64,000 nt of DNA from the NCBI RefSeq assembly GCF_025717555.1, contig NZ_JAJIRP010000005.1:1-64000 (forward strand), written 5' to 3'. Positions 21,914 to 25,784 of the stretch are shown here, piece after piece. Each line of letters opens with the position of its first letter. Position 1 is the stretch's first letter. The notes beneath the pieces are model-generated. The model saw nothing but the letters and a program-made list of their open reading frames with translations, was not told where the DNA came from and searched no databases. This DNA is from Paucibacter sp. B2R-40. Its GTDB lineage: Bacteria; Pseudomonadota; Gammaproteobacteria; Burkholderiales; Burkholderiaceae_C. The position numbers and the translations under genes were made by a program.

Positions 21914-22459
21914 TTAGCGCTTTTTTGGCGCCAGGACCATGATCATTTGCCGGCCTTCCAGCTTGGGCATGTTCTCAACCACGGCCACATCGGACAACTC
22001 GTCGCGGATTCGTTCCAGCAGACGCATACCAATGTCTTGGTGGGTGATTTCACGACCACGGTAACGCAAGGTCACCTTGCCTTTGTCACCATCTTCGGCA
22101 ATGAAGCGGCGCAGATTGCGCATCTTGATCAGGTAGTCACCCTCGTCCGTACCCGGACGGAATTTGACTTCCTTGATTTCGATGACCTTCTGCTTGGACT
22201 TCGCCTCGGCAGCGCGCTTTTGCTCGATGTACTTGAACTTGCCGTAGTCCATCAAACGGCAGACCGGAGGGACGGCCGTGGCGGAGATTTCGACAACGTC
22301 CACATCCAACTCGCCCGCCATGCGGAGCGCTTCGTGGATGCTCACAATTCCGAGCGGCTCGTTTTCTTGGCCGTTCAAACGGACTTCAGGAGCCAAGATT
22401 TCGCGATTCAGCCGATGCTTGCGCTCAGGAATGGCTCGACGGTCAGCAAATGTAGCGAT
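21914..22459 (-). CDS. infC: Translation initiation factor IF-3, likely starting at ATC
   Basis: IF-3 prevents premature subunit joining and proofreads the initiator codon. [32 protein letters not shown] and [14 protein letters not shown] form the N-terminal domain, and [44 protein letters not shown] the C-terminal domain. No ATG precedes the conserved N-terminus in frame: a stop (TGA) lies just 15 bases upstream of an ATC codon at 22459-22457, and the frame between holds only ATC, ATT, CTG and TTG (22396) as potential starts. AAAGG lies 8 bases before that ATC, so I place the start there, giving 181 residues, the normal size. The TTG start would cut off the conserved basic segment [15 protein letters not shown]. 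coli infC starts with AUU, through which IF-3 limits its own synthesis; the same logic fits ATC. Confidence 0.93.
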
Positions 22460-22530: not shown

Positions 22531-24450
22531 TCAAGCCTTTTGGGTGATGTCGGCGGAAATCTTCGCAATGAAGTCTTCCAAGGCCATCACACCCAGATCT
22601 TGGTTGCCACGGGCGCGCACCGCAACGGCTCCATTTGCCTTCTCCTTGTCGCCTACGACCAGGATATATGGAACCTTTTGCAAAGAATGCTCACGGATTT
22701 TATACGTGATTTTCTCGTTTCGCAAATCTGCGTGGACCCTAAGCCCTTGTTTCTGCAGAGATTTCACGATTTCGGCGACGTAATCGGCCTGCGCGTCGGT
22801 GATATTGGCGATCACCACCTGCGTCGGCGCCAGCCAAACCGGCAAAGCGCCGGCATGCTGTTCGATCAAAATTCCGATGAATCGCTCCAAGCTGCCGACG
22901 ATGGCACGGTGCAACATCACCGGCGTTTTGCGCTGACTGTCTTCGCCGACAAACTCTGCGCTCAAGCGCTCTGGCATATTCGAGTCGATCTGAATCGTGC
23001 CGCATTGCCACTGGCGACCCAGTGCATCTTTCAAGGCATATTCAATCTTGGGCGCGTAAAAAGCACCCTCGCCCACTGCGATCTCGAACTCGCAACCCGA
23101 GCGGCGCAGGCTTTCCATCAAGACCTGCTCGGTCCTGTCCCAATATTCGTCGGTACCGATGCGGGCCTCGGGGCGCGTCGCCACCTTGTAGACGATGTCG
23201 GTGAAGCCAAAGTCGGCATAAACCTTCTTCAGCAGGGTCGTAAACGCCTCGCACTCGGCCAGGATCTGGTCTTCGGTGCAGAAGATATGGCCGTCGTCTT
23301 GCGTGAAGCCGCGCACCCGCATGATGCCGTGCAGGCCGCCTGTAGGCTCATTGCGGTGGCATTGGCCAAACTCACCGAAGCGCAATGGCAGATCCCGGTA
23401 GCTCTTGATACCCTGGTTGAAAATCAGGATATGGCCGGGGCAATTCATCGGCTTGAGCGCGTAGTCACGCTTTTCCGACTCGGTCGTGAACATATTGTCC
23501 CGGTACTTGTCCCAGTGACCCGACTTTTCCCACAGGCTACGGTCAATGATTTGCGGACCCTTGACCTCCAGATAGCCGTTCTCACGATAGACCCGACGCA
23601 TGTATTGCTCGACCTCTTGCCAGACCGCCCAGCCCTTGGGGTGCCAGAACACGGTGCCGGGAGAATGCTCGTCGATATGGAACAGATCCAGCTCACGCCC
23701 CAACTTGCGATGGTCGCGCTTCTCGGCCTCTTCCAGGCGGATCAGATACTTCTGCAGATCATCCTTGCTGGCCCAGGCCGTGCCGTAGATGCGCTGCAAT
23801 TGCTCGTTACGGTGGTCGCCGCGCCAATAGGCACCGGCTACCTTCATCAACTTGAAATGCTTCAACTTGCCCGTCGACGGCACGTGCGGGCCGCGGCACA
23901 GGTCAGTGAACTTGCCTTCGGCATACAGGGATACATCCTGATCGGCCGGGATGCTCTCGATGATTTCGGCCTTGTAGGCTTCGCCCAGGTTCTTGAAATA
24001 GCTGACCGCCTCGTCGCGCGGCAAGACGCTGCGCGTGATGCGCTCGTCCTTCTTGGCCAACTCGCTCATCTTCGACTCGATCGCCGCCAGGTCCTCCGGC
24101 GTGAACGGGCGCTTGTAGGCAAAGTCGTAGAAGAAGCCGTTCTCGATCACCGGACCGATGGTGACCTGTGCCTCGGGGAACAATTCCTTGACCGCATAGG
24201 CCAGCAAGTGGGCGGTCGAGTGACGAATCACCTCGAGGCCGTCGGCATCCTTGTCGGTGATGATGGCCAACTGTGTGTCGACCTCTAACAAAAAGCTGGT
24301 GTCGACCAGCTTGGCATCCGCACCTGCGCCGACACGGCCGGCCAGCGCCGCCTTGGCCAGACCAGCGCCGATCGAGGCGGCCACTTCGGCCACGGTGACG
24401 GCTTGCGGGAACTCACGCTTGGAGCCGTCGGGCAATTGAATAGCGATCAT
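22531..24450 (-). CDS. thrS: Threonyl-tRNA synthetase
   Basis: The 639-residue product charges tRNA-Thr. It begins with a TGS domain ([28 protein letters not shown]), then the N2 editing domain ([24 protein letters not shown], with its HxxxH zinc/editing motif), and the class II catalytic core with motif 2 around [33 protein letters not shown]. The C-terminal anticodon-binding domain includes [19 protein letters not shown]. The ATG at 24450 follows AGGAG at a 7-base spacing. It is the first structural gene of the translation operon; the 5' leader contains a Thr-rich peptide and a terminator, listed separately. Confidence 0.97.
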
Positions 24451-24493
24451 GAAGAAACTCCTGAAGAAGGCGGCGGGGCTATGTTTGAGGTCG

Positions 24494-24521
24494 AAAAAAA
24501 ACGCGGGCTGTGCCGCGCTTT
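24494..24521 (-). terminator. Leader terminator upstream of thrS
   Basis: On the minus strand AAAGCGCGG and CCGCG-TTTT form a stem of about nine pairs with a 6-nt loop, followed by a run of eight T. It lies 43 bases upstream of the thrS ATG. A TACAAT box lies between the patatin stop and the leader, so this terminator falls inside the thrS transcript. Its 5' arm GCGCGGC (24518-24512) is complementary to GCCGCGC inside the leader ORF (24580-24574). Confidence 0.85.
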
Positions 24522-24598
24522 GATCGATGGCTGCCTGAGCAGCACTTGGAAGAGAAAGTTAAGTCGTGACGAGGCGCGGCCGACTAAACCCAGGTCGG
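24512..24598 (-). promoter_or_regulatory. Predicted attenuator pairing region of thrS
   Basis: Read on the minus strand, segment 1 CCGAC (24598-24594) can pair with segment 2 GTCGG (24584-24580); segment 2 extended, GCCGCGC (24580-24574), can pair with segment 3 GCGCGGC (24518-24512), which is the 5' arm of the terminator. Ribosomes stalled on the Thr codons at 24612-24601 would cover segment 1 and free segment 2 to form the anti-terminator. Sequence complementarity is seen; the mechanism is inferred. Confidence 0.7.
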
Positions 24599-24630
24599 GG
24601 TGTGGTCGTAGTTCGCGGTGTCATAACCAT
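24559..24630 (-). CDS. Threonine-rich leader peptide of thrS
   Basis: A 23-codon ORF on the minus strand starts ATG at 24630 after GAAAGG and ends TAA at 24561-24559. It begins MVMTPRTTTT; seven of 23 residues are Thr, including four consecutive codons ACT ACG ACC ACA (codons 7-10), and the last two codons are Thr as well. All four Thr codons are used, so it senses total Thr-tRNA. The ORF is too short for gene finders and has no other coding partner on its strand. The position between a TACAAT -10 box and an intrinsic terminator, 109 bases before thrS, is that of an attenuator leader peptide. Confidence 0.8.
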   Translation of the reverse strand: MVMTPRTTTTPRPGFSRPRLVTT

Positions 24631-24667
24631 GATGCCTTTCTCGCCCTTGTTCGTTGCTGATGGCCCA

Positions 24668-24673
24668 ATTGTA
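24668..24673 (-). promoter_or_regulatory. -10 box TACAAT for the thrS leader
   Basis: On the minus strand TACAAT lies 38 bases before the leader peptide ATG and 22 bases after the patatin stop. No good -35 hexamer is present at 16-18 bases. Predicted transcription would begin near 24661, giving a leader of about 210 nt. Confidence 0.45.
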
Positions 24674-24695
24674 GCCATGGATCAAGTCACTGCCC

Positions 24696-25784
24696 TTACA
24701 GCGGCAGCGCCGCGATGCTGGCTTGCTCGCAAGCGGCGGCAAATTCATCACGCAAACGCTGGCTCTCGGCGACGGCACGCAACCATTCGGCCGCACGCGC
24801 CTGCACATTGTCACCATGATGCTGGAAGTCGGCTCGGTCTGGCAGTTTGCCGCGCGGCAGCGTCCTAACCCAATCCGGATGCGGTACCAGCAGGACCACG
24901 TTGTCCAGAAAGGCACTGGAACGATGGCGGCGCTTCAACGCTTTATCCAGCCAACCCGGAATCACCTGGCGTTGAAAATGCGGATAGAGCACTACTCCAT
25001 CGCCCAGCATCGATGCATAGTTCAGATGCAAGTGATAGTCCGTGATGCCGCCATCCCAATAGGCCCCGCGCGGCGCACCAGGAATGTCATGCACCGCCTG
25101 CAGCCAAAACGGGATCGAGCAACTGGCCAGCAAGGCGGCCTGAAAGTTCTGCGGCGTCAGCGCCACCTGGCGACTGCGGTAGTCATGCAGCGGCATCGGC
25201 AGCTCAGCGCCCGGCGGCGAAAACACGACCCGCTCCAGGCTGCCGCCCATCAAGCGGCGACCGAGCAGGTTCGCCATGAAGGCGCCCGTGTAGCCCAAGG
25301 GTGTGCGCAGCCTGCCTTCGCGTGCCAATAGGTAGCGGCCGCGCGAAGTGAAAACATGCGGCCGGTAGCGCGGGTGGCTCAGCGCCAGCGCCTCGCGTCC
25401 ACCGAAGACCTCATCCAGCTTGGCCGCAAAGCCACGCGTCACCTCGGCGGCCGTCGGCATCTTGCCGGCCGGGCTGTCGTAATGCTGATGGATGTAATCG
25501 TGGGAAAGTCGCTCGAACTCGGCCGCGGTCTGCTGCGCGTTACGCCCCAAACAAGCGGTCACCATGCGCCAAGCGCCAATCGAGGCACCGAGCAAATGCA
25601 CTTCTTGGCTGCTGCGCGCCAACCAGTCCCCGAAGATGAACTGATCCAGGGGCCCCAGAATCAGTCCCTTGGGGCCTCCTGCCGCCGCCGGTACCACGCG
25701 CACATCGTCGGGGCGCAGGCCACGCTCGGCCAAGCGAGCTAGGGCCCTCGGTCCGGCAAAAATTTGTAAGGCCTGCATTGCCAT
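24696..25784 (-). CDS. Patatin-like phospholipase
   Basis: The 362-residue product has the patatin Ser-Asp dyad arrangement: an oxyanion-type glycine loop AAAGGPKG (33-40), the nucleophile elbow LLGASIGAWR with Ser68 in GASIG, and WDGG with the catalytic Asp at 244. These enzymes cleave acyl esters of phospholipids or other lipids. There is no signal peptide, so it is probably cytoplasmic. The ATG at 25784 is the first likely start; ATG 25778 two codons later is equal. It begins about 8 bases after the stop of the TonB receptor gene, suggesting one transcript. Confidence 0.85.
   Translation of the reverse strand: MAMQALQIFAGPRALARLAERGLRPDDVRVVPAAAGGPKGLILGPLDQFIFGDWLARSSQEVHLLGASIGAWRMVTACLGRNAQQTAAEFERLSHDYIHQHYDSPAGKMPTAAEVTRGFAAKLDEVFGGREALALSHPRYRPHVFTSRGRYLLAREGRLRTPLGYTGAFMANLLGRRLMGGSLERVVFSPPGAELPMPLHDYRSRQVALTPQNFQAALLASCSIPFWLQAVHDIPGAPRGAYWDGGITDYHLHLNYASMLGDGVVLYPHFQRQVIPGWLDKALKRRHRSSAFLDNVVLLVPHPDWVRTLPRGKLPDRADFQHHGDNVQARAAEWLRAVAESQRLRDEFAAACEQASIAALPL

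Follow-up and report, generated by a model that had tools for sequence, protein, structure and literature searches.

The thrABC biosynthesis genes of the Escherichia coli thr operon are governed by a Thr/Ile leader-peptide attenuator, pheST of the same species by a Phe-codon attenuator (pheM) in the rplT-pheS gap, and thrS of Firmicutes by a T-box, in which tRNA binds the RNA directly. The region upstream of thrS described here recalls the thr leader in that Thr codons in a short open reading frame (ORF), competing hairpins and an intrinsic terminator precede a structural gene, but the gene that would be regulated is thrS and the conserved part of the peptide comprises MTPRT and a few Thr. Like pheM, it would be a peptide attenuator on a synthetase gene which senses the cognate amino acid, although with Thr codons and at the head of thrS-infC-rpmI-rplT. 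With the Firmicutes T-box it shares the gene and the presumed tRNA-charging signal, but no Rfam T-box was matched, either at the gathering threshold in the window (the whole stretch of 64,000 nucleotides of Paucibacter sp. B2R-40 DNA that was analysed) or up to an E value of 5 in 24400-24750. The Thr operon leader and all other Rfam families equally gave no match up to E 5 in the latter interval, and a known Rfam element was dropped as a candidate since none matched.

In E. coli, thrS itself is under translational control, with ThrRS binding a tRNA-like structure of the mRNA (PMC9976931); here the same gene lies behind a leader ORF and its transcription terminator instead. For Bacillus hisS paralogs, a comparison of 5' terminators has predicted a His leader peptide (PMC2965389), likewise a predicted peptide leader on a gene of a synthetase family, although for another amino acid, gene and phylum. 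In Streptomyces lividans TK24, a thrL leader before thrS has been proposed as an attenuator from RNA-seq (PMC8079986). The thrL peptide, MKRVRPFLETTPGFVPAR, contains two Thr and stems from leaderless transcription, and its one hairpin is without a U-run, so that termination was called unclear by the authors (PMC8079986). Both systems place a short ORF with Thr codons ahead of thrS and share gene and signal. The thrL leader is actinobacterial; in the present one the terminator is strong, an antiterminator can be computed and many genera conserve the arrangement.

A Thr leader peptide on thrS therefore has a proposed precedent in S. lividans (PMC8079986). For the Burkholderiales, no report of a thrS peptide attenuator was found in searches of an open-access literature library; Lopatovskaya et al. 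2010, on attenuation of amino-acid and aminoacyl-tRNA operons, may already name thrS. What is described below is most probably classical attenuation on thrS with an unusually conserved core, and the idea is not wholly new given the S. lividans proposal. If the reading is true, it would imply, alongside the weaker Streptomyces case, that different mechanisms have repeatedly made one essential gene responsive to tRNA charging.

Results and Discussion

The thrS locus and its leader

Profile searches of the window gave the minus-strand gene order thrS, infC, rpmI, rplT, pheS and pheT. The thrS product contains the Pfam domains TGS, tRNA_SAD, tRNA-synt_2b and HGTP_anticodon, and the closest named relative in the ThrRS comparison was Paucibacter oligotrophus (90%). 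Within the 245 bases 5' of thrS are the hexamer TACAAT, a stretch suited to ribosome binding, the ORF MVMTPRTTTTPRPGFSRPRLVTT and an eight-T terminator. Based on its sequence and modelled folding, we consider 24673-24494 to be very probably a ribosome-mediated transcription attenuator of thrS; a Thr-responsive peptide attenuator, as initially annotated, is the best reading of the locus and is supported by the comparison across genomes. Those coordinates of the initial annotation that were compared with the sequence proved correct. The features are as follows, all on the minus strand.

22531..24450, minus strand: thrS, threonyl-tRNA synthetase, the gene predicted to be regulated (TIGR00418, 726.8 bits, cut-off 383.65)
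21914..22459, minus strand: infC (IF-3) with a probable ATC start, in the same direction and 3' of thrS (TIGR00168, 237.9 bits)
24668..24673, minus strand: -10 box TACAAT of the putative leader promoter (read from the sequence)
24634..24647, minus strand: ribosome-binding sequence AGGGCGAGAAAGGC ahead of the leader ORF (GAAAGG conservation)
24611..24627, minus strand: 17-mer GTTATGACACCGCGAAC, near-invariant, which surrounds the leader start and contains region 1, CCGCGAAC (family-wide conservation)
24559..24624, minus strand: leader ORF MTPRTTTTPRPGFSRPRLVTT, with 21 aa when read from the conserved start or 23 aa from the ATG at 24630 (in-frame Thr excess)
24601..24612, minus strand: four Thr control codons, ACT ACG ACC ACA (read from the sequence)
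24574..24580, minus strand: region 2, GCCGCGC, 5' half of the antiterminator (7-bp complement of 24512-24518)
24494..24521, minus strand: intrinsic terminator AAAGCGCGGCACAGCCCGCG-T8, the 5' arm of which (24518-24512) is region 3 (scripted terminator rule)

A mobile origin of the locus was dropped, there being no phage match and two weak plasmid matches with 13% and 20% query coverage.

The close set comprised 80 thrS loci from named records, 78 of which had at least 150 bases upstream (L071 and L079, with hardly any upstream DNA, were omitted), giving 79 with the window; its rows are related, so that counts from it are not independent. For the order-level set, 100 genomes from 69 genera were drawn, of which 99 had thrS and 90 were used, the window included, with nine genomes and the additional thrS copy of G144 and of G188 omitted. 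The set from other orders consisted of 40 regions used out of 105 genomes with thrS. Alignment A1 excludes L069, L075 and L076.

Putative promoter and start of the leader

The -10 box TACAAT is present at 24673-24668, as annotated, and 40 of 50 leaders, counting that of the window, have a -10-like hexamer 5' of the conserved ATG, in most cases 45-60 nt from it. Inspection by eye revealed a weak -35 box, and a consensus promoter scan of 24000-25000 found no promoter. The ribosome-binding motif GAAAGG, at -16 to -11, is conserved at approximately 80% or more per position in the 50 leaders. An ORF does begin at 24630, where the initial annotation had set the start, but it is the next ATG, at 24624, that relatives conserve as the start; the position of the first ATG is occupied by CTG, CCG, ACG or other non-ATG triplets in many relatives. 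Among the matches listed, GTG replaces the conserved ATG in at least three genomes, and in L013 the leader start codon has been lost. In the minimum-energy fold of the window's leader, the ribosome-binding GAGAAAG (24642-24636) pairs with CTTTCTC (24558-24552) just past the leader ORF, a modelled pairing which is a possible extra layer of control.

Threonine codons of the leader ORF

The ORF ATGGTTATGACACCGCGAACTACGACCACA...TAA spans 24630-24559 and has the 23 codons and seven Thr originally attributed to it, with the run ACT ACG ACC ACA at 24612-24601. Among 90 leaders, Thr accounts for 25.8% of codons in the eight-codon segment that begins at codon 6 when read in frame, while the two alternative frames give 1.5% and 2.6% (stop codons were included in these counts and duplicate leaders removed; L026 is without a terminator by rule). 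Codon 6, counted from the conserved start, corresponds to the second Thr codon of the window's run; 58/90 leaders have Thr at this codon, encoded by ACG in 26, ACA in 18, ACC in 12 and ACT in 2. The sequence 3' of the fixed block is variable and yet stays in frame across the 90 leaders, and the leader ORF looks translated on these codon statistics. A ribosome-binding site with an in-frame codon signal, as is characteristic of a leader-ORF attenuator, is thus present in the sequence, together with an excess of codons for the cognate amino acid, Thr. The excess noted in the window extends to its relatives, but the run is not strict: Thr residues number from two to nine per leader, and just two are present in 10 of the 90.

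A Thr-dense ORF was defined as one with at least four Thr in six codons and a purine-rich stretch ahead. Such an ORF lies 5' of thrS in 10 of the 90 Burkholderiales genomes (window included), where shuffled sequences lead one to expect 0.00, and every other amino acid passes the same density rule in at most one of the 90. When the strict rule was applied to the 40 thrS upstream regions of other orders, the one passing case for Thr was a translated tRNA gene and Arg passed in three; two regions passed a looser Thr rule. Different Thr-rich leader peptides precede thrS in other families, such as MFKRTTTTRISR, MFRTSTTTQS, MAVRTTTTHP and MLKTDTTTLMISG. With tRNA stretches masked, CGAAC (Arg-Thr codons) was found in 32/90 regions versus 4/40 in other orders.

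The core ATGACACCGC or a one-base variant of it occurs in 50 of the 79 close upstream regions (window counted). In the comparison within the Burkholderiales that had been suggested at the outset, neither the core nor a Thr ORF was present in 24/79 close and 60/90 order-level regions, in a tally that holds doubtful Thr ORFs in L119 and in L031 and L035, where they overlap the upstream gene.

Terminator and upstream transcripts

The terminator with eight T lies at 24521-24494, as initially described, approximately 40 nt ahead of thrS; the built-in scan missed it and scripts using another rule detected it. The sequence thus places an intrinsic terminator between leader ORF and gene, as in known attenuators. 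Terminators precede thrS in 61/90 Burkholderiales upstream regions (3.3% in shuffles) and in 70/77 regions of close relatives (5.2% in shuffles).

Terminators in this position could merely end an upstream transcript, that of a tRNA-Val gene in many families, in which case the short ORF would be incidental. A tRNA-like end is found upstream in 65/90 order-level regions, and ARAGORN identified tRNA-Val (GAC) directly before the leader region in all nine loci tested (L120, L121, L125, L129, L137, L157, L169, L108 and L112). Because of these tRNA-like ends, the terminators of the order-level set may belong in part to a tRNA transcript, and a terminator was also found in 12 of the 40 thrS regions from other orders. 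Genomes such as L015, L019 and L029 moreover have promoter and terminator without the ORF. In contrast, there is no tRNA near thrS of the window or of three close relatives tested, the tRNA pattern is present in just 5/79 close regions, the terminators of the close set coming after a -10 box that belongs to the leader itself, and neither an in-frame Thr excess nor a folding switch is expected of a transcript end. We therefore give this explanation a very low probability and retain attenuation as the preferred reading.

Two variations of the region were seen alongside. In L015, L019, L029, L031, L032 and L040 (Limnohabitans and other Burkholderiales), the -10 box (GCGTAAAATC) and a terminator of the form GCGCGGC...GCCGCGC-T persist while the leader ORF is gone, and in the tRNA-Val group the terminator often reads GTGCGGC...GCCGCAC-T.

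Predicted competing pairings

Region 2, GCCGCGC (24580-24574, from the end of codon 17 to codon 19), is perfectly complementary to the terminator arm GCGCGGC (24518-24512), as the initial annotation had proposed; in the window this 2:3 duplex has a computed energy of -16.6 kcal/mol and a shuffle p of 0.050. The 1:2 helix of the same proposal fared differently. Its halves CCGAC (24598-24594) and GTCGG (24584-24580) are present, but as a general helix the pairing was rejected, being private to the window and L001 (2/54 leaders). In the 1:2 helix that the leaders share, region 1 is CCGCGAAC(TAC), which sits at the leader start and covers codons 3-5 counted from the conserved start; the window's own helix of this shared type is weak (z 0.3). 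The leaders have in common the pairing of region 1 with region 2 (e.g. GTTCGCG), that of region 2 with GCGCGG, the 5' arm of the terminator, and the terminator hairpin itself. Region 2 lies at or 3' of the stop codon in 42/48 leaders; the exceptions are the window and five more leaders, which have it inside the ORF, and the ORF of the window runs through region 2 owing to a frame change. The leader fold of the window has a z of -3.12. In L070 an altered terminator, AGCAGCTT, and an altered region 2 (CAGAAGC) still match.

Folding and comparison suggest the following course of events. When Thr-tRNA is charged, the ribosome would clear the leader, region 1 and region 2 would pair, and the terminator would form. 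When charged Thr-tRNA is scarce, the ribosome would stall at the first Thr codons and cover region 1, whereupon region 2 would take the 5' arm of the terminator (region 3) and transcription would enter thrS, with read-through probably continuing to infC, rpmI and rplT. Such a switch would most likely raise ThrRS output when charged Thr-tRNA runs short.

The RNA of 90 leaders was folded to the end of the terminator loop, with masking as a stand-in for the stalled ribosome. Folding, which had been suggested at the outset, supported a switch of the proposed kind: masking the leader start through codon 5 raised the mean predicted probability of capture of the 5' arm by upstream sequence from 0.59 to 0.91, with an increase in 76 of the 90 leaders. 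When the middle segment was shuffled, capture went from 0.735 to 0.764, a difference of 0.029 (sd 0.015) as against 0.313 for the real leaders, and in the window itself masking raised it from 0.63 to 1.00. Masking with any of codons 1-11 in the A site gave 0.88-0.93, the effect fading from codon 12, and masking at codon 1 equalled masking at the Thr codons (0.93 versus 0.91). Any early stall suffices, and therefore the fold does not single out the Thr codons; it is the codon statistics that do so. With a ribosome parked at the stop codon, mean capture of region 3 was 0.77, and for this reason the off state probably arises, in the model, from 1:2 pairing once the ribosome leaves.

A set of 18 other loci (type B) was picked by hand, the choice being made by eye; three are from Ralstonia, and L143_G177, which has no terminator, was dropped. 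The difference on masking was 0.170 in this set versus -0.015 (sd 0.039) when shuffled, with 14 loci shifting in the same way, three in the opposite way and one unmoved. The computations thus point to mutually exclusive 1:2, 2:3 and 3:4 pairings set by the position of the ribosome, as in established attenuators.

Covariation of the pairs across species, for which the initial annotation had asked, was assessed by permutation. Over 28 order-level genomes each leader's own 2:3 duplex beat pairs made across species, with 75 of 20000 permutations as good; when L069 and L070 were added the count was 5/20000, and in the close set 33/20000. Split by type, the order-level 2:3 test was not significant (1004 and 1616 of 20000), nor was the 1:2 test over all 28 genomes (1917/20000), although type A alone gave 383 and the close set 48. 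Shuffling of single leaders gave p<0.05 for 2:3 in 18 of 62 type-A rows and 3 of 16 type-B rows, the type-B loci of these tests too having been chosen by eye, and for 1:2 in 16 of 62 and 1 of 16, respectively.

A near-invariant block at the leader start

Of 250 genomes sampled from the family, 194 contain the 17-mer GTTATGACACCGCGAAC with at most one mismatch, representing 111 of 135 genera, while the reversed 17-mer matched in two of the same 250. All 30 copies that were fetched lie directly 5' of thrS and, among the matches listed, the 17-mer is single-copy except in G249, which has two. It is lacking in 56 family genomes, and many of these are of small size (2.3-3.4 Mb). A 21-nt start-codon pattern allowing up to three mismatches matched once in the 5.6-Mb genome, as did its reversed control, and a genome-wide repeat was dropped as an explanation, the block being single-copy in the genome.

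Across the 50 leaders, positions -4 to -1 and +10 to +13 hardly change: -4 to -2, +10, +12 and +13 are invariant and -1 is altered once. The pattern with which the rows were chosen had itself fixed most of positions 0-9. In the same leaders codon 4 is CGA in 47 and codon 5 is ACT in 45, and codon 2 is ACA, which the selection pattern had nearly fixed. These three near-fixed codons make up 3.1%, 5.9% and 5.6% of the codons for their amino acids in thrS of the 80 loci. Conservation of the block thus seems, at the level of sequence, to exceed what the peptide alone requires. The untranslated and synonymous sites from -4 to about codon 5 are conserved and the rare codons ACA, CGA and ACT nearly fixed, and for this reason the block ATGACACCGCGAACT might have a second function, as a start-codon hairpin sensing initiation, as a place where ThrRS or some other factor binds, or as the seed with which a small RNA acts in trans; we regard such a function as rather unlikely. 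Were it to exist, the leader would be a two-input switch on thrS-infC-rpmI-rplT, and the near-invariant block in any event presents a concrete puzzle open to test.

The same block could be taken to mean that control is translational or protein-mediated rather than exerted by attenuation, with ThrRS or another factor binding it much as in the E. coli thrS operator. The invariance in the 50 leaders includes bases ahead of the start codon, and RNAalifold places a small hairpin at the block with the AUG in its loop, both of which accord with a binding site. Three of the four pairs of this hairpin hardly vary, however, and G163, G208 and G115, whose leaders are of type A, have a different base at -4. 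The block is furthermore approximately 160-175 nt from the thrS start, with the terminator between, and string comparison with two tRNA-Thr genes (among 30 of 53 tRNA loci) found no string common to them and the leader beyond chance. Control of this kind in place of attenuation appears highly unlikely to us. Within the scope of that string comparison, mimicry of tRNA-Thr by the block was dropped, and a possible complement to 16S rRNA was among the other ideas set aside.

The terminated leader could also act mainly as a small RNA on other genes, leaving attenuation secondary. Attenuator products acting in trans have precedent, peTrpL of Sinorhizobium reportedly being one, and the peptide would not seem to call for so strict a conservation of the block. 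Control in cis is favoured by the excess of Thr in frame and by the folding switch, and we hold the small-RNA explanation to be the least probable of those weighed here, cis attenuation of thrS remaining the preferred interpretation.

Genes downstream of thrS

If the genes are co-transcribed, attenuation would tie IF-3, L35 and L20 to the charging of Thr-tRNA. The initial annotation had extended this coupling to PheRS, which is doubtful because a terminator-like hairpin with seven T (CAAAGGCCGACACCCTGGTGATCGGCCTTTTTTTA, 21009-20975, minus strand) separates rplT from pheS. This hairpin was read by eye and is absent from the list of the terminator scan; no Phe-rich leader ORF was seen by eye in the same gap.

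Non-standard start codons are known for infC of E. coli. In the window, infC has an apparent ATC start rather than ATG, GTG or TTG; the mechanically called ORF begins later, at a TTG, and in the longer reading TIGR00168 spans residues 12-181. The infC-rpmI gap (21915-21765, minus strand) contains a long imperfect hairpin of -56.9 kcal/mol (z -3.68), a second partial copy of which is present elsewhere in the genome, at L246, with 78% identity over 90 bases.
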